Positions 845 to 22,958 of a DNA stretch of 27,113 bases are shown piece by piece. Positions within the stretch are counted from its first letter, which is position 1. Each line of letters starts with the position of its first letter. Below the pieces are notes generated by a model. It worked only from the letters and a program-made list of their open reading frames with translations. It searched no databases and was not told where the DNA came from. Source of the DNA: a virus. Where the stretch lies: positions 1 through 27,113 of IMG/VR virus record IMGVR_UViG_3300017952_000081; one strand, written 5' to 3'. The position numbers were made by a program, and so were the translations under genes.

Positions 845-3800
845 TTACTCCTCATACTCCGTATCCCATCTGTCAACATCTTTACGCTCACCGTACACAG
901 TGTAGAAGCAGTTGATTGGTGCATCGCTGCCAACAATAACAGTGTTGTCAACAATATCTTCAACCCAAATATCTTGTTTACCACCTATTGCTGTCAAGTT
1001 AACAGTAATAGTATCTTCATGTACAAGACCAGTCCAATAATCAGGTAACTCAATTACATTTGTATCTTTCAGTCTGCCACGTACATATACACCATCTTCT
1101 GGACCTTCGAGTGTACCGTGACGTAACTTCATGCCATCTTTGGTTGGGTGATCGATTACAAAGCTCTTGCTTACAGCAGCAAAAGTACCGTTAACTTCTA
1201 ACATATAGTTAGTACCTGGGCTAGTAGTATCACCTTCTCCAAAGCCAATTCTAGCTGCTTTTGCAACAGTTAGCTCACCATCTGTGGTAAGTGCCATAGC
1301 ACCTTGAGAATCAGCGTGAGACGAATCACCCCACCAGAAGCCTCTATCATTGGTATTACTCATTTGGAAACTCATAGCATAATCGTTTAGACCGCCATAT
1401 GTGTATCCTGATTTCATACCAATTGTGTATGTGCCGCTGCTCCAAACACGGATCTTATCACGTGTCTGTGAACCGTTACCGTCTATCAAACCAATGTTAT
1501 AACGTGTGCTTGCACTAAACAGATCTGGGAATGTACCAGCGTTTAGGTTACTTGCATTTCGGTAGAATGCACTGCTTTCTCCATCTAGCAAGTCTGCATC
1601 TAGTCCGCTACCAGAACCGTCGTTACCGCTGGTCCAAACAGTGTATTCTGTGCCATCTGCATTGTGCTTCAAGCCATTTACACCACCTAACAAGTCAATG
1701 TAGTCGTCGTGTACATCGTTGTAGATACGCACTCTGTTACCACTGTCAACAAACTGCATGTAAGCTCTACGTGTGCCTGCTTGATACCAACTGATATATG
1801 GATTACCTGTTGCACTAGTATCTGCTAAACGAATCATTTCGTCGCCTGCATGACTCATTGTTAGTAGGCCGGTCATTGTATCAGCTTGATCACTGCGTAC
1901 AAATTGAGTGCTGTTTATACCATCTAGTAAATCTGCATCAACATTTGTAAGTCCACTACCATTACCAGTAAATGTACTTGTACCAATGTTGATGTTACCA
2001 AATGTTGTAGTAATTTCACCTGCATCTAGTACACCAGTACCTGTTAAGTTACCATATGTTCCGTCAATACGTGCGTTAGGCACTGTACCACTACTCAAGT
2101 TACTTGCATTAAGTTGTGTAAGTGCGCTTCCTGTACCGTTAAAGCTACCGCCGTAAATAGCACCCTGTACACCAAGTCCACCATTTATTCTAACTGCACC
2201 AGTAGTTGTACTTGATGCTGCACTTGTATTGGTAAATGTTTTAACACCTGCCATACTTTGGTTACCACCAAGTCTACCACCTGCTACTGTACCACTGCTC
2301 AAGTTGCTTGCATTTAGACTGCTTAGTCCACTACCATTACCAGTAAATGTGCTTGTACCAATGTTAATGCTACCAAAGCCGTCAGTTATGCTACCGCTAT
2401 TTAATGCACCGGTTCCTGTGATACTTGCTTGGTGTTGTGTAATACTCGAAGCAGCAATAGCAGCATCTGGAATAACACTGTTGTTGACTGATGTTATACT
2501 AGAAGCATTTACATTTGTTAATCCTGCACCGCTACCAGTAAAGATACTTGTACCAATATTGATGTTTCCAAATCCAGTGTTAATACTACCACTGTTTAGT
2601 ACACCAGTACCAGTGATATCACCTTGGTGTTGTGTTACGTTACCACTGCTAATACGTGCATTTGCAAATGTACCACTTGTAATTTGGCTTGCAGCAATGT
2701 CACCCCAGAAGTTGTCAGCAACAACATCTTTAGCAACACGTATACCACCTGTTAGTTTTACACTTGCTGGGTCATCAGCAAATGTTTCAGTTCTATCAGC
2801 ATTTGTAGCATCAGTAAATGTTACAAAACTGTTAGCTGCTAGTGTTGTAAATGCACCTGTGCTTGGAGTGACGTTACCAATCGGTGTGTTGTTGATTGCC
2901 GGTACTGTAAACGTTCCATCAACATTTAGGTTGCCGTCAACGTCAACATTGTGTCTAAATCTAGTTGTACCAGTTGTTTCGCCAACAACAATACTGGTTG
3001 CTGCTTGACCAAATGCAATAGTAGTTGCATTGTCTTTTATTAGGTTAAATGTACCAGTTTCGTCAGTGTCAATTGTTGTACCATTAACATTTAGATTACC
3101 GTTAAGTGTGGTTGTAGCATTCCTGATTGTTGCTGTGCCTGTTGCAGCACCGATAGTTATGCCAGTACCAGCGCCGGCAATATTGACAGTTGTGGCTGTA
3201 GTATTTACTAGGTTAAATGTACTACTATTTGTAGTAATATCGCCGCCATCTACATTAACATCACCATCTACATCCAAGTTATTGTTGATACTTGTTGTAC
3301 CTGTTGCAGCACCAATATCAATTGCTGTTGCAGCACCACCAAAGTTAATTGTTGTTGCTGTGGTATCAAACAGTGCCATTGTTGCACTTGCAGCATTAAG
3401 TCCTGTTGTAATAGTCGGGCTTGTACCAAATACTAGAGCACCACTACCAGTTTCGTCGCTTATCACTCCTGCAAGTTGCGCACTTGTAGTAGCAGCAAAT
3501 TGACTTAGATTTCCTCTATTAGCAAGTGTACCACTTGTTGGAAGTGTTAATGCTGTATTACCTGTAGTTGTAAGTGAAAGTGTGTGTGCTCCACTGTGTG
3601 TGAAGTTACCGCCTAGTGTAATAGTTTTTGTACCGTTGTTTACACCTGTACCACCGTAAGTTGGGCTAATAATAGTACCTTGCCATACACCTGTGCCAAT
3701 TGTACCAACACCTGTTAAACTTGAGTTAACAACTGCACCACCGAGTGTTGTAGAACTTAAAACACTTGCTCCGTTGATACGATACGCTTTACCACTTGCA

Positions 3801-6800
3801 AGTTCAAAGTTTTCACTACTTGTCCAACTATCGGTTGCATTGACCCAATTTATAGTTTTATCTGTAGCACCTTTTAGTGTAATACCGCCTCCGTCTGCTG
3901 TTGCATCGCTTGGTGTTGTTACATTACCAAGCTCAATATTTTTGTCTTCAACTGCTAATGTTGCTGTATCAATTGTAGTTGTAGTACCGTTTACTGTTAA
4001 ATCACCTGTAACAACCAAGTTACCTGCAATATCAGTGTTACCTGTTGTAAATGCAACATTAAATTTGTTAAGACCGTCGCCAAACGCTAGATCACCTGTT
4101 GCACCAATTTGCATACGCTGAGTGCCTGCTGTGTAGAAATCTAATTGATCGTTATCAGTTCCTGCACTGGATTCAGCTTCGATTTTAGTATCTTGGTCAA
4201 CGTCTTTAACACCGCCTAAGCTACCCCAGTTTGCTCCGTCATAGCCTTCAAATGTACTATCAGTTGTGTTATAACGTATTTGACCTTGTGCTTCACCTGT
4301 TGCTACACCAGCTTCACCCGGACGTTGGGCTGATGTTCCAACTGGTACTTTTAATCCTGCTGTGCCTGTTAAGTTTACATAACCTGGAATAATTACATCA
4401 CCGTCGGTGTTGATTGTCATTCTTGTTGTATATGTTTGCTCAATATCGCCTGCCGTACCAGTATCACCTGTTTGAATAATTACACTGCCGCCTGTTGCAC
4501 TACCGGTACTTAAACCGCCTGCAAGTGTTAAATCGCCGCCTGCGATATTATTACCAATACCGCTTTCGCCTTTGATTACAGCATCAACTGGAGATGCACT
4601 TGCTTCTGCGCTACCCAGTATAACATTTCTGTTTCTCAACAATAGTGTATTATCTCTAACAATTGTACCGTTTTGTGTTATAGCTGGATCTGCACTAACG
4701 TTTGCATCAACTCTTACTGTAAATGATGTTGCAGTTTCACTTGCACCTAGAACTGGCCACGTACCATCAACATTTGTAATGCCGCTGCCGTTTATAGTTA
4801 CAGTGTCGCCTGCACGGATACCTAATGTTAAAGGAGTAGTTGTGAAAGTAATATTTGTACTTGTAAGTATACTACCAGTTAAATCATTGCTTATGAACAC
4901 TTCGCCTGCATCGGTAACACCTGTAACAGTTGTATTAGCTGGAATGTTTCCGCTACCTGTTACTAGCATACCAAACAAAATGTTTGATGTATCAGCAAAT
5001 AGAATTACATTTTCGCCATTTGCACTTGCCGCATTTGTTTGTCTTGCTATACTGTTTAGATTGACAGTAACATCCTGGCTAGTTGCTGCTTCATAACTAA
5101 TAACATTTGCACTAATATCTCTACCAGTGCTCGAAGCACCTATTTTAACATTTTCAGCGGCGCCGCCTATTTCAAGAGAAGTAACATTTGTATTGTACAC
5201 TTGTCCAAGACCTGTGCTGCTAGATGTTAAGTTTGCACTTCCAACGTCCAAGCCTTCTGCAAGATCAAGTGCTGTACCCCATTCTGGAGTTGTTCCATTA
5301 GATTTTAAGAAACTATTGTTTCTACCTATTTCTAATCTATTTAAACTACCTGCTGATTGTGCATAAAGTATATCGCCTACTGCGTATGTACTAATGTTAG
5401 TACCGCCTCTGTTTACCGGAACTAAACTGGTTAAGTTTGCTGGGTTGAGGAAATATGCACTATCTAAACTATCAAGTGTACCAGCATCAACGACACCGTC
5501 TTTAATAAACACTTCGCCTGATCCGTTTGTGTTAACATCAAATTGTTGTTGTATAAATCTTGCAACACCTAACGTTGAGAAAGTTCCAAGTGGATCATAA
5601 TCAACATTGCTAATACCAATGTTTACAGGATCTCCATAGAATTCTCCGCCTAAACTAGAACCTGTAAGTGTAATCGGGTTGTCAGTTGTGTTTGCTTTTT
5701 TCAAACTTTGTACAACAGTCTGATAGCTACTATCACCTCTTAAGAATGTATCAGTGTTGGCAACACCAGAACTTGCAAGTCTACTAGGACTAATCGTACC
5801 TGAAATAATATTTGTAGCATCGATATTAGTAACTGCTAGTGTGTTCCAGTTTGCTTTTATTCTACTAGAAGTGTTTATCACTGCTGATACTTGAACATTG
5901 TTTGGTATAATTTCTGCACTACCTACACCTGCTCCGTCAATATCTTTAGCATTTGTTACTAGTCCATTTATACTTGCTAGTGCATCAGATCTAAGTTCGT
6001 GTATTGTAAAACTATTATCAGTAACACTGCCTACAAAGAATCTACTACCAGTTGCTATAGGATCTCCGGCAACACTGAATAGCTCGTTAGCAGTAGATCC
6101 ATCACTTAATGTTTCAATTCTAATAGCATCGCCAGTTGTCAAACCATGTGCTAATACTGTTAAACTATTGTCAACTTGGTTTACCACTCTACGTGTAATA
6201 TTATGGTTGTTGTTTGCAGGAGTAGTTAAAAATTCTACTTGATTTAACAAACTAAAATCTTCATACAACTCTACAGTGCTATTGTCAATTCTTTTTGTAT
6301 AATAAACTTGACCGTTTATTAATCCACCTATAGCAACATTTCCTAATGTGTTATAAACAACAGGGTCTCCATTGCCAAACACGTGATTTGCTATGGTAAT
6401 TCTGTATGTAGTATAGTCAACAGCACCGCCACCACCAGTTGTACCTGCAAGGAAGTTTTTAGATTCTTCGTCATCTAAGTTAATAAATTTAGCATTTTGT
6501 ACTGCTGAATTATCTTCAACAAAGTCAATACTTGTTGCACTAGCGACAAATAATTCACCACCTAGAATATTTACATATGCACGTTTTTCTATAGAAGAAA
6601 CGTCAATTTCAAAGCCACTACCTGTTCCGCCTATTGAACTTGCAAGTGTCGATAATGTATCTCCAACAGCGTATCCAGTACCACCTGTTTTGATATCAAC
6701 GTCAGTAACTTGTCCTGCTGTGACAGTAATATCAGCTGTTGCTCCAGAACCAGAACCTGATACATTTGTTAGTGCAACATTTTCGTAAACTAACGTTCCG

Positions 6801-9800
6801 CCTGTAGGAGTATACAAACTACCGCCGGTAATGTTACCATTGTCTACGTTTGTTAAAACACCATAACGAACTTCGCTTACAGCACCTTGAGCATTACCAT
6901 CAGCACTTGTTACAATAGTTCTAGCAGTACCGCTATCTCCTGTGCTCGATACATCGCTACCTGTATTTGCAATTGTAAATGTAGTCGACGAAGGAACACT
7001 TAATATTTTACCATTAACTGTAAATGTTGTATCTCCTTCGACAACAACTTGAACATTATTATCTATTTGGAAATTATGAGCACCACTAGTAGTAATTGTA
7101 GCAACATTACTACTTCTTGCAATGTTAGTAATAGTTTGACTTGTAAATGTGTAATCGTCATCTGGATCAAGCACAAGGTATTGACTTGAAATACTTGAAC
7201 GTAAAAAGAAGTTGTCAATAATATCGGAACTACTTCCTTTTGAATCAACGGTTAAACCAGAGTCAACACCGTTGATATAAATTGTACCGGCACTTACTTC
7301 CCAAGGATCAGCAGTACTATCTGCTGTTTCATCCCAACGCTCTCCTTGCGAAGCAACTAGAATATTACCACTATTATCGTAACTACCTTTTGCATATGCA
7401 ATAGCTCCCTCAACTCCTGGTTGGGTAATCACATCGCCGTCGTTTGCTGTTATATTACCACTAAGTGTAAGTTCAACTTGCTGATAGTTTTCAGTAGCAA
7501 TGTCACCAGCTTTTAGATCAGCTGCTGGAATATTATCTACTTGTTCTAGTCTAGACAGATAACCATTTGTGTTTGTGTTTGTAAACTGACGTGTAGCAGG
7601 AATCAAGTCTGCATTCAACTGACCGTTTGTGTTCAACTGAACAATAGCACCCGGAACAGCCGCAGTAGACACAGTTTTGTCAACAAAGCCACCTAGCCTG
7701 TTACTAATAAAACTTCTTACTGCTAACTGTGTAGAAAGTCTAGCATCACTAGGACCGCCGATTTCATCGTCACCCAAGTTAACACTGGTTGAAATTTCTT
7801 CAATAGCAACATCTGACAAGCTCAGTCTCAATGCGTCAAGTTCGTCCACCTGCACTTTGTTTCTAAATGTAATGTTACCAGTTCTGTTGAACGCTGTAAT
7901 AAAGTCACCAACCTTAAAGTCACCAAGTTCGTTTGTACCTGATGAGTAGCAACGACCTGGTAATTCTTCAAACTGTTCATATTCTTCTCTTGTGTTACCA
8001 CCGTTTTGTGGAAGTGCATTATAGTCTGTACCAGAACCTGCATATTCCCAAGTGTGTGCAGATGAGTTAACAACCGATGGTCGGTGGAACCATACTGATT
8101 TTTCTGGTAAGTTACTTAGGTTTGTTAGACTACTTGTACCGTCTGTAGCAGTAACGGTAAATGTAGCAGTACCTAAATCTCTAACTGCACTAACTTCGTT
8201 TACACCAATACTTGTGTTAGGTGAACCAGCATGATCGCTGGTAATTGTACTAGTTGCATCAAATTGAATACGTAACGTGCTTGATCCAACTGTAACTTGT
8301 TCTACACTAACAATAAGTTTTCTTTCTATAGGTGTCCAACTGTGTACAATAGCAGCATTATTGTTTACTCCTGTTGTACCTGTAATCTGTCTACCTGGAA
8401 CAAATTCGTAACTTTCAGACCCTGATTCAAGTATTAACTGTTGATAAGTTGTATGACTGCTTAAAATTTCTTCTACAAAAAACTCTATAATATTTGATAA
8501 GAATTTATGCGTTCCGCTATTATTAAAGCCGGTAAACAATACAACATCGAATTCCAAACTATCATCAAATGCTAAAGTAAATTCATTCTCATCGATTAGT
8601 TTGATGTAGTATGTTTGTTCTGGATCTAAACCGCCAATTGGTGTGTTTCCGTCTGGATCGTATATAACTTTTTGTCCATTTGTGTATCCATGTCCTGTGA
8701 TTGTAAAGATACTTGTGCCAGCATTAACATCTGCACTTGCATCAAAAGTTTGCTCAGTTGGTGCTGGTTTATATGAGTTTGTTACATCACCTTCTGAACT
8801 AACCTCAGTGTATGACGGAATATCGCCAGGATCTCTAATTGCTTCTTTTACAATTTCAAATCTTGAATCTACAAAGTCTTCGATTGCTAGTGTAACACCT
8901 GTTAGTCCACTTATTGCTGTGTTTGCTAACTCACTTGCTTTTTCAACAGCAGCAATAGTTTGACGTTCTTGTCCACTAATTTGACTTCTAGTACTATCTG
9001 CTAAGTTGTTAGTATAGTAAGACAAGCCTGCGGCACGTGTGTATCTATTACCAGTATCCCAAGTATCTTGTGCAACAGCTTCAACAATTAGTCTTGTATC
9101 TCTACGACATTTTTCAATGTCGTATGTAAAGTTGTACCAGATAGCTGGTGCAATTTGTTCTTCTATGTATTCGTTTACATTTTGAGCAATATTAATTCTT
9201 GTTGTGTAATCAAGTAAGTTATAATTATCCTGTAAACTTTGTGTTGTCCAAGAAATATCTGGATAATCTTGTTCAAGTTCACTTATTGTTGCATCGCCAT
9301 CTGCATCAATATAATCTATAATTTCTTGCACTAGAGATTCTGCTTTTGTTGCAGCAGCTGAAGAACCAGCAGTGCCACTTGTGTCTTGCACTTCTGTTGT
9401 ACCACTTGAAGTTGTAACAGCAGTTTCTAGTATAACTTCGCCAATTACTGTTTTGAGTCTGCCATAAGCAGCAATAGTTTCTTCTTTTTTACCAGAACCA
9501 TATTGTGCTACTGTACCGACAAAGTACGCCAATGCAGCGTCATATGTTTGTAAGTTTCCGCCATATGTTAAGTCATAAATCAAGGCGTCGATAATCAATC
9601 CAATATCTTCTTGACATTTCGCAGAATTGTAAGCAAAATTAGTTGCAAATGGTGAAGTGCCTGCCGAAACTTGATCAGCTATCCAAGCAGTAACTTCATC
9701 TTGGACAAATGCTTTGTTTGCAATTAATTGTTGTACTGCATTTGCGTAACCTGCGTCACTAGCATTATTTGATCCGCCTGTTGGTGTTGGGAAACTGTAT

Positions 9801-11617
9801 GCATCAGCAGCACCTTCGCCGTTTTGTACAATATCTATAATTTCGTCCCATAGGGCATTTACACGAGCTATAAATGTACTATCTCCAAGATAATCATCAG
9901 TAATACTTTTAGCATATGTAAATGCTTCAACGTGTTGATCACGTTGATCTGGTAATGTATCAAATGTACCATTATAGTAGCGTAAACCCGCACTTACACT
10001 TCTGTAATTACTGTTAAACACAGCATCTTGTCTTATTGCATTTAGTAAAAGATTGACATCACGTTTACATTTTTCTACATTGTAATCAAATCCTGCCCAA
10101 ATACTAGGAGTTGCAGCGGCTATTTGCGCTTGAATCCAAGTTACTGTGTCATCAGCAATAGTATTTTTCTCAGCTATTAATGTATCGTATGCTGTTCTAT
10201 ATCCAGGTTCTCTAAAACGTAAAACAAATTCTTCAACAGGAGTATCACGATTAATACCCACAATTGTAAGTGTTTGTTTACCTTCACTTTGACCTGTAGC
10301 AGTAACACTAGCACGGTCAAATTCAAATGCTTTAGGTGAATAACCACTTGAACGTAGCGCATACAAACCAAAGTTTGTTGCAGAGTTAGTAATTGAGCAA
10401 TATCCGCCTGATTGTGTATAAACACCGTTGAGTAGGAAAATTTGGAAACAGCTAACGATCTGTGCATAAGCATCGTTAAGTAGTCGCCAACCTGTACCAC
10501 CAAACGAAAGCATGGTGTATGCGTTAGCAACCATCGATTTACCTTGTTCAGGTACAGCACCAATAGCTGGATTCTCTGCTTCAATTGGAAAATCAGGAAC
10601 GTTAGGCGATTCAACTAATGCACCATCAATTTTAGCACCACTACCACCTAAGAAAGAAATAATCGAGCAGTTTTGTGTATATGGAGATGTAAAAATTCTT
10701 GGTCTTGAGTCTGGCAGGTTTGTATATTCTGCACGGTCGGTAACGTCAGTTGCAAAAGGATCATCAAACACTGTTGCATAATCCCAAGTAATAACAGGAA
10801 TTCCGTTAGCATCAATACCGTCGCGGAAAGTAAATTCACCAAAGTAACAAGCGTTACGAACACGGAACATGTCCAAGTTAGCATTCGCAGGACGCACAAT
10901 ACATCCACGCAAACCGTCGCCTTTTACAACAACATTGTCTGGAATAATAACAGGGTTGTCTTCTGTATAGTCGCCAACAGCAACTTTTACGTTTACCCTT
11001 GTGCCAGAAAGTGTACCGTCTGCATTATAAACAATAGCAGATGCTAATTTACAAGCACGTTTAATTGTTTTAACTGGAGCACTCTGTCCATCGTTAGCAT
11101 CGTCGCCTTGTTCTTCGGAAACGTATATAACATTACCGCCAAAAATATCAGGATCAGTAAAACTTAGATTACCTTGCCCATCTGTTTTGAGTAGCTGACC
11201 TATTGTACCTGTAACTGGAGGCAAAGTTAAGGTATATCCGTCTGCTAGTGTATCTGGTGATTTAATACTAACACCGTCATCGCCAGATGCTGTTAATTCT
11301 TTAAATGTAAGCGTATTTGCATCTTCGATATTAACTCTATCTTTTAAATTAATATCAGTGTCATTGATAATCATACGTTCTGTGTTATTTACAGTTACAG
11401 TAACTTGAGCCTGATCAGCAGCTCCTAAATCATCAACTTTAACTTCTGAATCGCCTTCAAAAATTCTTTTGGTAATATCTTGAACAGTGTTATCATCACG
11501 CAATAGGTATACTTTACCATCGGCTGTATTGATTGCTAATTCACCTGATTCTAATTGAGAAACTATTGGCTGTTTGCCAGCCACAGCACTACGCTTGTGT
11601 CTAATTGTTGTTGCCAT
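845..11617 (-). CDS. Giant tail-fibre/structural protein with beta-helix, Cys-x-Arg-Asp modules and IDHP C-terminus (3590 aa)
   Basis: An intact 3590-aa protein starting at ATG 11617 behind AGGAGG. Domains in order: an N-terminal cap; a pectate-lyase-like beta-helix (about 160-440, 'VIYVSEEQGDDANDG ... TIKRA'); three Cys-x-Arg/Glu-Asp helical modules with Cys at about 517, 668 and 837; a 'GDFKVGDF' segment near 1225; long beta-repeat shaft regions with 'TVNG', 'GGVG' and 'NTTDSTFEGYDG' motifs (about 2430-2470); repeats around 'FTGNGSGL' (about 2990-3230); 'DADLLDG' repeats; and a C-terminal domain (about 3475-3590) with 'KSFVIDHPTK', 'GTLEGPEDGVYVRGR' and 'LPDYW'. That C-terminal domain is familiar from fibres of marine T4-like phages. 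The protein is probably a long trimeric fibre that recognises the host. It is a paralogue of the split gene upstream. Which T4 fibre it replaces (gp34-gp37) cannot be decided from sequence. Confidence 0.93.
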   Translation of the reverse strand: MATTIRHKRSAVAGKQPIVSQLESGELAINTADGKVYLLRDDNTVQDITKRIFEGDSEVKVDDLGAADQAQVTVTVNNTERMIINDTDINLKDRVNIEDANTLTFKELTASGDDGVSIKSPDTLADGYTLTLPPVTGTIGQLLKTDGQGNLSFTDPDIFGGNVIYVSEEQGDDANDGQSAPVKTIKRACKLASAIVYNADGTLSGTRVNVKVAVGDYTEDNPVIIPDNVVVKGDGLRGCIVRPANANLDMFRVRNACYFGEFTFRDGIDANGIPVITWDYATVFDDPFATDVTDRAEYTNLPDSRPRIFTSPYTQNCSIISFLGGSGAKIDGALVESPNVPDFPIEAENPAIGAVPEQGKSMVANAYTMLSFGGTGWRLLNDAYAQIVSCFQIFLLNGVYTQSGGYCSITNSATNFGLYALRSSGYSPKAFEFDRASVTATGQSEGKQTLTIVGINRDTPVEEFVLRFREPGYRTAYDTLIAEKNTIADDTVTWIQAQIAAATPSIWAGFDYNVEKCKRDVNLLLNAIRQDAVFNSNYRSVSAGLRYYNGTFDTLPDQRDQHVEAFTYAKSITDDYLGDSTFIARVNALWDEIIDIVQNGEGAADAYSFPTPTGGSNNASDAGYANAVQQLIANKAFVQDEVTAWIADQVSAGTSPFATNFAYNSAKCQEDIGLIIDALIYDLTYGGNLQTYDAALAYFVGTVAQYGSGKKEETIAAYGRLKTVIGEVILETAVTTSSGTTEVQDTSGTAGSSAAATKAESLVQEIIDYIDADGDATISELEQDYPDISWTTQSLQDNYNLLDYTTRINIAQNVNEYIEEQIAPAIWYNFTYDIEKCRRDTRLIVEAVAQDTWDTGNRYTRAAGLSYYTNNLADSTRSQISGQERQTIAAVEKASELANTAISGLTGVTLAIEDFVDSRFEIVKEAIRDPGDIPSYTEVSSEGDVTNSYKPAPTEQTFDASADVNAGTSIFTITGHGYTNGQKVIYDPDGNTPIGGLDPEQTYYIKLIDENEFTLAFDDSLEFDVVLFTGFNNSGTHKFLSNIIEFFVEEILSSHTTYQQLILESGSESYEFVPGRQITGTTGVNNNAAIVHSWTPIERKLIVSVEQVTVGSSTLRIQFDATSTITSDHAGSPNTSIGVNEVSAVRDLGTATFTVTATDGTSSLTNLSNLPEKSVWFHRPSVVNSSAHTWEYAGSGTDYNALPQNGGNTREEYEQFEELPGRCYSSGTNELGDFKVGDFITAFNRTGNITFRNKVQVDELDALRLSLSDVAIEEISTSVNLGDDEIGGPSDARLSTQLAVRSFISNRLGGFVDKTVSTAAVPGAIVQLNTNGQLNADLIPATRQFTNTNTNGYLSRLEQVDNIPAADLKAGDIATENYQQVELTLSGNITANDGDVITQPGVEGAIAYAKGSYDNSGNILVASQGERWDETADSTADPWEVSAGTIYINGVDSGLTVDSKGSSSDIIDNFFLRSSISSQYLVLDPDDDYTFTSQTITNIARSSNVATITTSGAHNFQIDNNVQVVVEGDTTFTVNGKILSVPSSTTFTIANTGSDVSSTGDSGTARTIVTSADGNAQGAVSEVRYGVLTNVDNGNITGGSLYTPTGGTLVYENVALTNVSGSGSGATADITVTAGQVTDVDIKTGGTGYAVGDTLSTLASSIGGTGSGFEIDVSSIEKRAYVNILGGELFVASATSIDFVEDNSAVQNAKFINLDDEESKNFLAGTTGGGGAVDYTTYRITIANHVFGNGDPVVYNTLGNVAIGGLINGQVYYTKRIDNSTVELYEDFSLLNQVEFLTTPANNNHNITRRVVNQVDNSLTVLAHGLTTGDAIRIETLSDGSTANELFSVAGDPIATGSRFFVGSVTDNSFTIHELRSDALASINGLVTNAKDIDGAGVGSAEIIPNNVQVSAVINTSSRIKANWNTLAVTNIDATNIISGTISPSRLASSGVANTDTFLRGDSSYQTVVQSLKKANTTDNPITLTGSSLGGEFYGDPVNIGISNVDYDPLGTFSTLGVARFIQQQFDVNTNGSGEVFIKDGVVDAGTLDSLDSAYFLNPANLTSLVPVNRGGTNISTYAVGDILYAQSAGSLNRLEIGRNNSFLKSNGTTPEWGTALDLAEGLDVGSANLTSSSTGLGQVYNTNVTSLEIGGAAENVKIGASSTGRDISANVISYEAATSQDVTVNLNSIARQTNAASANGENVILFADTSNILFGMLVTGSGNIPANTTVTGVTDAGEVFISNDLTGSILTSTNITFTTTPLTLGIRAGDTVTINGSGITNVDGTWPVLGASETATSFTVRVDANVSADPAITQNGTIVRDNTLLLRNRNVILGSAEASASPVDAVIKGESGIGNNIAGGDLTLAGGLSTGSATGGSVIIQTGDTGTAGDIEQTYTTRMTINTDGDVIIPGYVNLTGTAGLKVPVGTSAQRPGEAGVATGEAQGQIRYNTTDSTFEGYDGANWGSLGGVKDVDQDTKIEAESSAGTDNDQLDFYTAGTQRMQIGATGDLAFGDGLNKFNVAFTTGNTDIAGNLVVTGDLTVNGTTTTIDTATLAVEDKNIELGNVTTPSDATADGGGITLKGATDKTINWVNATDSWTSSENFELASGKAYRINGASVLSSTTLGGAVVNSSLTGVGTIGTGVWQGTIISPTYGGTGVNNGTKTITLGGNFTHSGAHTLSLTTTGNTALTLPTSGTLANRGNLSQFAATTSAQLAGVISDETGSGALVFGTSPTITTGLNAASATMALFDTTATTINFGGAATAIDIGAATGTTSINNNLDVDGDVNVDGGDITTNSSTFNLVNTTATTVNIAGAGTGITIGAATGTATIRNATTTLNGNLNVNGTTIDTDETGTFNLIKDNATTIAFGQAATSIVVGETTGTTRFRHNVDVDGNLNVDGTFTVPAINNTPIGNVTPSTGAFTTLAANSFVTFTDATNADRTETFADDPASVKLTGGIRVAKDVVADNFWGDIAASQITSGTFANARISSGNVTQHQGDITGTGVLNSGSINTGFGNINIGTSIFTGSGAGLTNVNASSITSVNNSVIPDAAIAASSITQHQASITGTGALNSGSITDGFGSINIGTSTFTGNGSGLSSLNASNLSSGTVAGGRLGGNQSMAGVKTFTNTSAASSTTTGAVRINGGLGVQGAIYGGSFNGTGSALTQLNASNLSSGTVPNARIDGTYGNLTGTGVLDAGEITTTFGNINIGTSTFTGNGSGLTNVDADLLDGINSTQFVRSDQADTMTGLLTMSHAGDEMIRLADTSATGNPYISWYQAGTRRAYMQFVDSGNRVRIYNDVHDDYIDLLGGVNGLKHNADGTEYTVWTSGNDGSGSGLDADLLDGESSAFYRNASNLNAGTFPDLFSASTRYNIGLIDGNGSQTRDKIRVWSSGTYTIGMKSGYTYGGLNDYAMSFQMSNTNDRGFWWGDSSHADSQGAMALTTDGELTVAKAARIGFGEGDTTSPGTNYMLEVNGTFAAVSKSFVIDHPTKDGMKLRHGTLEGPEDGVYVRGRLKDTNVIELPDYWTGLVHEDTITVNLTAIGGKQDIWVEDIVDNTVIVGSDAPINCFYTVYGERKDVDRWDTEYEE
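1930..2700 (-). repeat. Imperfect tandem repeats encoding FTGxGxGL shaft units
   Basis: Within the 3590-aa gene, three imperfect copies encode 'FGxINIGTSxFTGxGxGL' preceded by 'ITGTGxLNSGSI' or a close variant. They lie at about 1955-2060, 2326-2430 and 2517-2630, and are similar at both DNA and protein level. Such Gly/Asn/Thr-rich units are typical of trimeric beta-structured fibre shafts. Copy number could vary by slippage or recombination. Confidence 0.75.
4188..4290 (-). repeat. Dispersed repeat shared with 12742-12840 (GYDG/VKDVDQDT unit)
   Basis: This stretch encodes 'QIRYNTTDSTFEGYDG' followed by 'WGSLGGVKDVDQDT'. A closely similar DNA copy lies at 12742-12840 in the same orientation, inside the 3' half of the split fibre gene. 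The match is imperfect DNA but nearly identical protein, so it reflects paralogy under selection or gene conversion. It is the most conserved patch between the two giant fibres and a possible site of recombination between them. Confidence 0.7.
9000..10130 (-). repeat. Three Cys-x-Arg-Asp helical modules in the 3590-aa fibre
   Basis: Three copies of a module with the pattern C-x-[RE]-D-x3-[IL]-[IVL]-x-A-x3-D-x4-[GS]-N, then A-[GA]-x-x-Y-[YF]. The Cys codons lie at 10067-10069, 9614-9616 and 9107-9109, giving periods of 151 and 169 codons. Eight more copies, two of them degenerate, occur in the split fibre gene. Predicted helical content is high, unlike the beta-rich shaft. I do not know a named domain for it. 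Confidence 0.8.
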
Positions 11618-20744: not shown

Positions 20745-21107
20745 TTAGATTGCAGTCAAACGTAGTAATGATTCGGTTGAGTCGTCCTCAGCTGTCCATG
20801 TATAACGATTTCCGTTATAATCTACTGCTGTTCTGTTGAATAACTTTTTAATTGCAATAGCGCCGCCGCCATCTCCAATACCTATGATTTGGCATTCTAA
20901 ATTTGCGTTTGGTTCTGAACCATCTGATGTTAATCTGCAAATTCTTGTAATTGTATCACCATCGTTTGAGCAGTTAAATTTATTTGTACCACGTTGTGAT
21001 AAAATGTAACCTTCGATTAAATTTGAACCATCGTGGAATCTAATTGGAATATTAGCTGCTGCTCCACCTGTTGCTCCAAAGTATCTTTTATTTACTGGAC
21101 GTCCCAT
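20745..21107 (-). CDS. MGRPVN-family small structural protein (120 aa)
   Basis: A 120-aa protein starting at ATG 21107 with AAGGAG 8 bases upstream. The N-terminus 'MGRPVNKRYFG' is a recurrent signature of small proteins in the structural clusters of T4-like marine phages. The rest is Gly/Asn-rich and beta-predicted ('GYILSQRGTNKFNC', 'ITRICRLT', 'GNRYTWTAEDDSTESLLRL'). The family's function is not known to me; a virion component is inferred from context. It is the first gene of the fibre/structural operon, preceded by a late-type promoter (21193-21200) and a structured leader. Confidence 0.83.
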   Translation of the reverse strand: MGRPVNKRYFGATGGAAANIPIRFHDGSNLIEGYILSQRGTNKFNCSNDGDTITRICRLTSDGSEPNANLECQIIGIGDGGGAIAIKKLFNRTAVDYNGNRYTWTAEDDSTESLLRLTAI

Positions 21108-21141
21108 TGTTTTTCTCCTTATGTTGACGTTCTAGGTCTAC

Positions 21142-21174
21142 GCAGTGGGTACTGCATAAGTCCTCATCGTGAGG
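21142..21174 (-). promoter_or_regulatory. Paired hairpins in the leader of the structural operon
   Basis: Two short perfect hairpins lie between the late promoter (21193-21200) and the 120-aa start. One pairs 21162-21166 with 21170-21174 (CCTCA/TGAGG, loop of 3). The other pairs 21142-21146 with 21151-21155 (GCAGT/ACTGC, loop of 4). They may stabilise the 5' end of a long late mRNA. Neither covers the AAGGAG ribosome binding site. Confidence 0.45.
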
Positions 21175-21192
21175 CTCTCCTCTTGACATAAG

Positions 21193-21200
21193 TATTTATC
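21193..21200 (-). promoter_or_regulatory. T4-late-type promoter for the structural operon
   Basis: GATAAATA on the minus strand, identical to the element at 11695-11702 and one base off T4's TATAAATA. It lies 86 bases upstream of the 120-aa start and 31 bases after the noncoding RNA terminator, where a new promoter is needed. It would drive the structural genes from 21107 leftwards. Confidence 0.6.
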
Positions 21201-21230: not shown

Positions 21231-21262
21231 AAAAAAAGGCCTGCAATTATGTTGCAGACCTT
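21231..21262 (-). terminator. Intrinsic terminator of the noncoding RNA region
   Basis: AAGGCCTGCAA (21236-21246) pairs with TTGCAGACCTT (21252-21262), an 11-bp stem with one C-A mismatch and a 5-base loop. On the minus strand a run of seven T (21237-21231) follows, as in a rho-independent terminator. It ends transcripts coming from the cold-shock-like gene and from the promoter at 21486-21513. Confidence 0.85.
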
Positions 21263-21479
21263 TCTCTATAATATTGATAGGTTGGACTAAGGATTACCAA
21301 CAATCGCCTTTGTAGATCCTGTCTAATAAAGCGAAGCCTAGCATCGGATAGTTATTTCCAAAATACGCATCTTCATGTCTCCATGCTCATGCGCTGCCAC
21401 TACAGCTACTAGCCAAGTTACTGCCTCTACTAAGCAGCGTTTCCTTGCACTATCTAACTTGGACCGTCGTCTTCGTTAT
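21231..21479 (-). ncRNA. Candidate structured noncoding RNA (about 250 nt)
   Basis: This stretch has no plausible protein gene but has a consensus-like sigma70 promoter at its head and a strong intrinsic terminator at its end. Between them the minus-strand RNA can fold. An 8-bp stem pairs CCAAGTTA (21462-21455) with TAACTTGG (21420-21413), enclosing a small CTGC/GCAG hairpin. At 21394-21365 lies a symmetric 30-nt hairpin: a 6-bp outer stem with one G-U pair, a GAG/AAG internal loop, a 4-bp CATG/CATG stem and a GAGA tetraloop. GAGA is a GNRA loop only on the minus strand, agreeing with the promoter direction. I found no tRNA, RNase P, tmRNA or group I intron signatures. The function is unknown; it may regulate host or phage genes, or be an unrecognised RNA family. 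Confidence 0.6.
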
Positions 21480-21485
21480 GTACTT

Positions 21486-21513
21486 AATATAGCATATACA
21501 AAATAAAAGTCAA
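21486..21513 (-). promoter_or_regulatory. Sigma70-type promoter of the noncoding RNA
   Basis: Minus strand: TTGACT (21513-21508), a 16-base spacer, then TATATT (21491-21486), with an expected start near 21479. The -35 box matches consensus in five of six bases and overlaps the stop codon of the cold-shock-like gene. This host-type promoter differs from the late-type elements elsewhere in the window, suggesting expression early in infection by unmodified host polymerase. Confidence 0.62.
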
Positions 21514-21710
21514 CCTATTTTTGTAATTTCTTCTGCATATCTTCTACCTTTTTTTTCAATATATGTGTATTCAACTCTGTCACCTTCGTTAAATTCATAA
21601 TTTATTGTTTCAAAGTAAACATCTTGACGTAATGTTTTCCATTGGTCAGGTAGTATTGTTCCATACTTTTTTCTTTTACTAAACTTTATAATTGTGCCAG
21701 TGTGTTCCAT
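21510..21710 (-). CDS. Diverged cold-shock-domain-like protein (66 aa)
   Basis: A 66-aa protein starting at ATG 21710 with GGAG 5-8 bases upstream. Its layout follows the cold-shock domain: 'GTIIKFSKRKKYGTILPD' for the first strands, 'DVYFETINYEFNEGDRVEYTYIEKKGRRYAEEITKI' for the rest, compared with CspA-type 'GxVKWFNxxKGFGFIxPD ... DVFVHxxAI ... EGQxVxFxxxxxxxGxxAxNV'. The length (66) matches CspA (about 70). The RNA-binding motifs are altered: KGFGFI becomes KKYGTI and VFVHF becomes VYFET, losing some stacking aromatics. It is highly charged and probably binds nucleic acid as an OB-fold. It sits in the place of T4 gene 24, between the gp23 terminator and the noncoding RNA. The fold call is from pattern only. 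Confidence 0.75.
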   Translation of the reverse strand: MEHTGTIIKFSKRKKYGTILPDQWKTLRQDVYFETINYEFNEGDRVEYTYIEKKGRRYAEEITKIG

Positions 21711-21736
21711 ATCAACTCCAATACAATATACTTATC

Positions 21737-21762
21737 AAAAAAATAGGCCCCGTAGGGCCTAT
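21737..21762 (-). terminator. Intrinsic terminator after the major capsid gene
   Basis: A perfect 8-bp stem ATAGGCCC (21743-21750) / GGGCCTAT (21755-21762) with a 4-base loop, followed on the minus strand by seven T (21743-21737, overlapping the stem end). It lies 24 bases past the gp23 stop codon. T runs on the other side make it potentially bidirectional. Confidence 0.92.
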
Positions 21763-21785: not shown

Positions 21786-22958
21786 TTAGCTGAATGATAC
21801 GTTTGAAACGCTTACACGAGCTAGGTAATCAGCAGCATTGCCAAGTGACGATGCTGTGTTGTTTAGCTCAACATAACCGTAACGTGTCATGAAGCTTACT
21901 ACTGGCTCGAATGATGTTGGATCTAGTACAACACCTGAGCTCATTAGTGGGATGTATGGGCAGTAGAACGCTGCTGCGTCTGATTCTGAAGAACCTTTGT
22001 AACCAATTAGTACATCTTTGCTGTCTGATGCATATGTGTTTACATATACTTTCATTGCGTTGTTCAATGTACCAACCATTTTTGTGTTTGTTGGTGCTTC
22101 AAATGTGCCTTCTGTTGTACGTGCAAACGCTGAAGTTGTTGCAGATTGTAGTACTGTTAGTGTGTGTGGTGACACAACTGCCCAGTTACCTGCGCCTCTG
22201 CGTGTACGCTGTGCGATTTTGTTTGATGCACGGTTGATCATAACTGCTAGAGCAGCATGTTCGTCACCAACAAATGTCGCTGTACCTGAAACAGCAGCTT
22301 GGTCAAACTGTACGTCTGATTCCGCTGAACCTGCTAGGCTATATAGTGACTCAAGAACTTCTTGGTCGATTTCAGCAGTAATCTCTTGTGCTAGTGCAGC
22401 CATGATTTCTGCTTCTACGTCGATACCATGCTGTGACTGAGCGTCCTGAGCTGCTTCAAATGTCCAGCGAGCTGACAATTTACGTGTCTTCGCTTCGACA
22501 GTTTGCTTCAAGATCTGGATGCTTAGACGGTTACCTGCGGTACCTTCCATAGCTGAAGTTGAGTTTGCTTTACCTCCATCTGAACCAGCTTCGTCACCTG
22601 AGTAACCGATAGCTAGTTTAAATGGGCTTAGTGCCTCTTCGCCTGCTGTTGCGTCATCAGCTGTGTCTGTATAACGAACGCGAAGTGTGTGAATCTGGCC
22701 AACTGGACCAGTCATTGGTTGTACACCAACAATCTCGTTTGCGATGACAGTTGGCATCACACGTCTGATTACTGGAAGAATAACACGGTTAAGTGTTGCG
22801 ATATTACCGGCAGATGTAGCACCAGCAGTTGCAGTCTCCATCAAATACTTGCGAGTATTTTCAAGTGTTGAAGCCATTACTGCTTTCTTTGTGCCTTGTA
22901 GGCCTTCAAGAAGTGCTGTTTTAGTATCGTGCCAGCGACTTTCTAATAGTTCTGACAT
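21786..22958 (-). CDS. 23: Major capsid protein gp23
   Basis: A 390-aa HK97-fold capsid protein that builds the head shell. It is recognised by 'RRVMPTVIANEIVGVQPMTGPVGQIHTLRVRY', equivalent to T4 gp23 'RRAIPNLIAFDICGVQPMNSPTGQVFALRAVY', and by the C-terminal 'SFMTRYGY' region. It is shorter than T4 gp23 (521 aa), as in other marine T4-like phages. The N-terminal propeptide also looks short: gp21-type sites (L-x-E) occur at 16-18 (LLE-G) and 39-41 (LME-T), so cleavage after Glu41 would remove about 41 residues versus 65 in T4. It starts at ATG 22958 with AGGAGA 7 bases upstream, 14 bases after gp22. A terminator directly downstream permits high, separate expression. Confidence 0.97.
   Translation of the reverse strand: MSELLESRWHDTKTALLEGLQGTKKAVMASTLENTRKYLMETATAGATSAGNIATLNRVILPVIRRVMPTVIANEIVGVQPMTGPVGQIHTLRVRYTDTADDATAGEEALSPFKLAIGYSGDEAGSDGGKANSTSAMEGTAGNRLSIQILKQTVEAKTRKLSARWTFEAAQDAQSQHGIDVEAEIMAALAQEITAEIDQEVLESLYSLAGSAESDVQFDQAAVSGTATFVGDEHAALAVMINRASNKIAQRTRRGAGNWAVVSPHTLTVLQSATTSAFARTTEGTFEAPTNTKMVGTLNNAMKVYVNTYASDSKDVLIGYKGSSESDAAAFYCPYIPLMSSGVVLDPTSFEPVVSFMTRYGYVELNNTASSLGNAADYLARVSVSNVSFS

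Follow-up and report, generated by a model that had tools for sequence, protein, structure and literature searches.

Genomic context of the RNA unit

The window, that is, the whole stretch of 27,113 nucleotides that was analysed, comes from a marine, T4-like phage whose gp23 is nearest to that of Vibrio phage 2.275.O (72% identity) and shares only about 32% identity with its cyanophage counterparts. Between the ORFs at 21510-21710 and 20745-21107 lies a gap of 402 bases without a protein gene, in which the minus strand carries, in order, a promoter (21513-21486), an RNA domain (21477-21271) and a terminator (about 21265-21231), as the first-pass annotation had described. The complete order is gp23, gp23 terminator, small cold-shock-domain (CSD)-like ORF, promoter, RNA, terminator, late promoter, freshwater-2 leader and gene. 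The features are as follows, given with the evidence for each.

21786..22958, minus strand: gp23 major capsid protein, upstream neighbour of the RNA unit (Pfam Gp23, E 4e-99)
21736..21762, minus strand: gp23 terminator, a palindromic hairpin and T run (sequence; same position in relatives)
21510..21710, minus strand: CSD-like protein of 66 aa, whose gene ends with a stop codon adjoining the -35 box (Pfam CSD E 2e-5, just short of the curated cutoff)
21486..21513, minus strand: sigma-70-type promoter TTGACT-16-TATATT with TG before the -10 (sequence scan; conserved in homologues)
21271..21477, minus strand: structured RNA domain with a divergent manA (RF01745) fold (cmscan, R1 model, covariation)
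21450..21454, minus strand: closing helix, 5' strand GATAG, pairing with 21276-21280 (covariation)
21374..21385, minus strand: CATG-GAGA-CATG hairpin with a GNRA-type loop (sequence, folding)
21276..21280, minus strand: closing helix, 3' strand CTATC (covariation)
21231..21265, minus strand: intrinsic terminator of the RNA unit, hairpin and T run (sequence; also in locus L001, identical to the window)
21193..21200, minus strand: late-type promoter element GATAAATA, belonging to the operon that follows, beyond the RNA terminator (sequence; slot relatives)
21105..21176, minus strand: freshwater-2 RNA (RF02980), leader of ORF 20745-21107, outside the RNA unit (cmscan 51.7 bits, gathering 49.9)
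20745..21107, minus strand: downstream gene for a 120-aa protein, which marks the slot in relatives (73 related loci)

The predicted gp23 terminator separates capsid transcription from the RNA unit. ORF ends similar to that of the CSD-like ORF were found before the RNA in four other loci (L004, L005, L024 and L025). At gathering thresholds, freshwater-2 was the sole Rfam match in the gap. It is, like the window RNA, a structured element of this gap, but it is unrelated in sequence and serves, behind a late promoter, as leader for the gene that follows, on a separate transcript. Rfam lists it only as cis-reg, and it recurs behind the late-type promoter at the equivalent place in many related phage contigs. 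Neither ARAGORN nor Rfam found a tRNA or tmRNA in the window. Elsewhere in the window, a single ORF of 3590 aa (845-11617, minus strand), accompanied on the opposite strand by long ORFs out of frame with it, probably encodes a tail fibre or other structural protein.

Relationship of the window RNA to manA

The first-pass annotation had recognised no known RNA family in the gap. This view had to be given up, since cmscan against Rfam at relaxed thresholds aligned the minus strand from 21477 to 21271 with the manA model RF01745 at 40.7 bits (E 9.7e-9, model positions 1-192 of 192). The score lies below the family's gathering score of 55.2 bits, which was reached by RNAs that occupy this slot in related contigs (L006, 85.3; L018, 62.5; L015, 62.1; L005, 59.0; L036, 56.3; L011, 55.4), that is, by 6 of the 10 slot loci scanned, with the remaining loci below it. 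Another scan gave an RF01745 match in 17 of 50 slot records, 7 of them over the cut-off. Because of the full-model match and the same-slot relatives over threshold, the window RNA is, judged from its sequence, a divergent manA homologue and not a threshold-passing member. Low-score Rfam matches such as Thr_leader, STnc30 and others were attributed to the terminator hairpin or to chance.

manA was described in 2010 (Weinberg) as a marine/cyanophage motif, likely cis-regulatory and possibly a riboswitch (PMC2864571), and Rfam 14 gives 48 covarying pairs for it with the ZWD alignment (PMC7779021). The window RNA shares with this family the full-length alignment over all helices, covariation within its own clade and the setting in marine T4-like phages: it neighbours gp23, it is carried by cultured cyanophages and pelagiphages, and the position directly after gp23 is also that of manA in P-HM1, P-RSM4 and S-SSM5. 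There are also differences. The core of its clade, GUGCAAGGAA...AACUUG, replaces the canonical GUGACUGAAUAA...UAAGGUG; in the alignment of the window RNA the first hairpin of manA deviates from the consensus pairing; and the window form is a unit of promoter, RNA and terminator, whereas manA carries the label of an element in potential 5' UTRs. In the window a terminator and a separate late promoter precede the next gene. Phages also carry GOLLD and ROOL, structured RNAs whose function is not known and which are often near tRNA genes (PMC12286853); both are much larger than the window RNA and unrelated to it in sequence, and the analysis gave no evidence of an oligomer or cage for the window RNA.

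Conservation of the fold

Folding of 21478-21228, to which the terminator contributes part of the stability, gave a z-score of -4.4, with none of 200 shuffles as stable. In an alignment of 42 sequences, made without fitting to the manA model and counted against its own RNAalifold consensus, there are 29 pairs in 7 helices, with 96.6% of cells paired. Covariation in relatives, which the first-pass annotation had proposed as a check, is evident: 285 cells carry double changes compared to 87 in shuffles, compensatory changes occur at 20 of the 29 pairs, and sliding the partners by 1-3 columns lowers pairing to 31-54%. The R1 model, in which the window sequence is itself included, scored the window RNA at 182.4 bits; further matches to this model, at 12-14 bits in some contigs, were treated as noise.

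The long-range stem of 8 bp that had been noted earlier is present as the GATAG/CTATC closing helix (helix 1), kept in 42 of 42 homologues with 100% of cells paired and double changes present, but its conserved part extends over 4-5 bp rather than 8. The hairpin with the GAGA cap stood in full, with a GAGA or GAAA loop retained in 29 of 42 homologues. No convincing ORF was found inside the RNA region in any frame of either strand, and decayed coding sequence was rejected because each of the six frames contains stops and because of the compensatory changes.

These data bear on the earlier suggestion of an antisense or decoy RNA, taken here as one aimed at a particular mRNA of phage or host. A standalone transcription unit would suit such a role, but conservation is highest in the helices and junctions that make up a complex fold, and not in a long open seed region, and we regard this reading as very unlikely.

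Distribution and promoter of the homologues

A blastn search with the window RNA against annotated phages returned chance matches only, and homologues were therefore sought through the flanking protein and DNA patterns. The downstream 120-aa protein retrieved 73 related viral loci, and the core pattern of the clade, TAGTGCAAGGAA...AACTTG, matches at least 120 viral contigs; the core-pattern matches listed from these contigs, together with the slot loci, provided 94 non-identical RNAs. Homologues of the window RNA are thus numerous and widespread in marine viral contigs. A longer core pattern searched in genome_contigs (84,980 species) matched only two contigs of one MAG. Both look like phage, since both carry freshwater-2 and one of them, L232, further contains ORFs that resemble those for gp23 and fibres.

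Within the slot itself, the RNA is present in 19 of 50 loci; in others, the gp23 terminator leads directly to the late promoter. The late-type element GATAAATA is found in slot relatives both with and without the RNA. The RNA is gained or lost as a unit, and two loci without it (L027 and L029) retain apparent 3' halves of its terminator, leftovers which suggest that the unit may have been lost there by deletion.

Among the homologues, tRNA-Gly follows the RNA in two loci (L086 and L099), and a permuted tmRNA is directly upstream of it in L140. The permuted tmRNAs (RF04321) were located at L140:5282-5613 and L088:12888-13275, the former with the predicted tag AKDHITLPSGSKF. Two further elements were observed in these contigs. 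In three contigs the manA-family RNA is preceded, at a distance of a few hundred bases, by a glutamine riboswitch aptamer (RF01739; L006:2214-2264, L036:1897-1943 and L051:2465-2512), and a recurrent hairpin like CTTAATAA-n-CGnGGGGnCCACGGTnAGnCCCC occurs near the manA RNA or tmRNA in L113, L115, L139, L140, L153 and L184, with no Rfam match at gathering level.

A promoter scan of the region returned 41 sites compared to 37.3 in shuffles, that is, no enrichment, so the window promoter alone means little. It becomes significant through its conservation directly before the RNA across homologues: of 89 distinct homologous loci, 77 have a sigma-70 match scoring 10/12 or better immediately ahead of the RNA, a level reached by 2.0% of random positions in the same contigs. 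The host-type promoter of the first-pass annotation is thereby supported, and it would place the transcription start near 21479. From the type of promoter only, the RNA may be active at a different time than the structural genes.

The terminator and the question of attenuation

A terminator lies within 70 nt after the RNA in 52 of 85 homologous loci, compared to 6.9% of controls, and mostly 12-20 nt past the RNA end. Where it is absent, the RNA is mostly separated from the next ORF, often a gp32-like one, by a late promoter element, and a few loci run directly into rubrerythrin, peroxiredoxin or hypothetical genes, names that were read from predicted protein starts and not from a database search.

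The conserved position of the terminator and its spacing from the RNA fit a transcription-attenuating riboswitch, in which a manA aptamer and its terminator platform would control readthrough into 20745-21107 and the fibre operon, and manA has been published as a riboswitch candidate. If the terminator were such a platform, its 5' arm should complement its own RNA above others, and the pairing test showed otherwise: pairing was -8.59 kcal/mol with the own RNA and -8.47 kcal/mol with other RNAs (p = 0.77), or -7.04 and -6.59 kcal/mol for the 3' part alone (p = 0.15). In the locus identical to the window, pairing of the arm with the RNA is possible at -14.9 kcal/mol, compared to -23.9 kcal/mol for the terminator hairpin. 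With no overall signal when own and swapped arms are compared, antiterminator pairing was rejected, and the mutually exclusive pairing of aptamer and terminator arm by which terminator riboswitches are judged was not found in this clade. Besides this lack of co-evolution between RNA and arm, the gene that follows is equipped with a separate late promoter and leader, relatives without the RNA retain both gene and late promoter, many members have no terminator, and the RNA occurs in single copy per genome at unrelated genes. Attenuation is consequently considered unlikely.

An RNA acting like put, which would modify RNA polymerase to read through the adjacent downstream terminator, agrees with the promoter-proximal position of the RNA, often directly ahead of a terminator. 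Readthrough in the window, however, would reach only late structural genes that have their own promoter, and the members flanked by tRNA or tmRNA fit poorly, leaving this mechanism highly improbable.

Cultured phages and canonical members

Among cultured phages, 16 records of complete or nearly complete genomes were searched. Of these, 10 gave a single RF01745 match above threshold (P-SSM2, P-SSM4, P-SSM7, P-HM1, P-HM2, P-RSM4, S-SSM5, S-SSM7, ACG-2014f and Mosig) and HTVC008M gave one weak match. Vibrio phage 2.275.O lacks the RNA. Every complete cultured genome with a match has a single copy. Apart from the three phages with the RNA directly after gp23, it is located ahead of tRNA-Gly in S-SSM7, between two tRNAs in ACG-2014f, and before purL, gp32 or rubrerythrin in others. 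An evident TTGACA-17-TATAAT-like promoter lies right before the RNA in most of the RNA-bearing cultured phages, and in P-HM1 a terminator follows it immediately. In the literature, a CMCompare study found manA often beside tRNAs (PMC3692125), and S-CREM1 was annotated with one manA RNA, its authors leaving the role open (PMC9964418). Annotated small hypothetical proteins (T4-GC 428, 524, 569 and 1355) overlap the manA RNA in P-SSM4, P-HM1, P-HM2, S-SSM5 and S-SSM7; such small ORFs in cyanophage genomes may be spurious.

Canonical cyanophage-type RNAs have their own promoter of at least 10/12 in 79 of 88 cases, compared to 3.3% of controls. Their terminators (11 of 87) are only slightly above the controls (6.5%), and an ORF begins within 150 nt downstream in 66 of 87 loci, where ORFs were called by length only and some are spurious. 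This context is compatible with the published cis-regulatory reading (PMC2864571). Since canonical members mostly precede nearby ORFs, the generality of the conclusion on the standalone form is limited.

The same proximity of ORFs would favour a cis-acting 5' leader that stabilises or boosts early transcripts, as an RNase shield or translation element, of which the standalone form would be a derived or decayed remnant. The RNA is indeed usually at the extreme 5' end of a sigma-70 transcript, and in P-SSM2 purL begins 16 nt after it. The standalone members, however, keep strong covariation, promoter and terminator, and are thus under selection without a downstream gene, while some members sit in tRNA or tmRNA arrays. 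A cis leader is therefore held to be improbable.

A probable standalone RNA gene with a proposed action in trans

Taken together, the absence of co-evolution with the terminator arm, the single copy per genome, the unrelated neighbours, the tRNA and tmRNA surroundings and the downstream gene's own promoter make an independent trans-acting RNA the simplest account, and the window feature is probably an independently transcribed structured non-coding RNA gene. Its transcription, stability and action in trans are what we infer from these data. Host-type (sigma-70) RNA polymerase would start near 21479 and produce a transcript of about 250 nt, ending at the terminator near 21231. The transcript would adopt the manA-type fold, with a 5' hairpin, the GATAG/CTATC closing helix, an invariant CAAG/CTTG helix, junction helices, the GNRA-type hairpin and a conserved 3' hairpin. 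As a stable structured RNA it would act in trans, probably through binding to one of the infected cell's proteins or ribonucleoproteins, and the tRNA and tmRNA neighbours hint at a possible link to tRNA or translation. Our literature search found neither a description of a standalone manA transcription unit nor a map of transcription starts for a phage that carries manA.

An extension to the whole manA family can be put forward only tentatively. The family could be a phage non-coding RNA gene with its own sigma-70 promoter rather than a cis-regulatory element, normally present in one copy per genome, located behind gp23, within tRNA/tmRNA arrays or in front of early genes, and acting in trans in the takeover of the cell, with the downstream genes as passengers of its promoter.

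The results indicate that a large clade is missed by the Rfam gathering score for RF01745. Since 2010 manA has remained an orphan among riboswitch candidates, and in its standalone form it does not resemble the gene switch that it had been taken for. The widespread occurrence of this form shows that selection can keep the RNA itself and not a downstream gene, and it shifts the search from a ligand to an RNA or protein partner.
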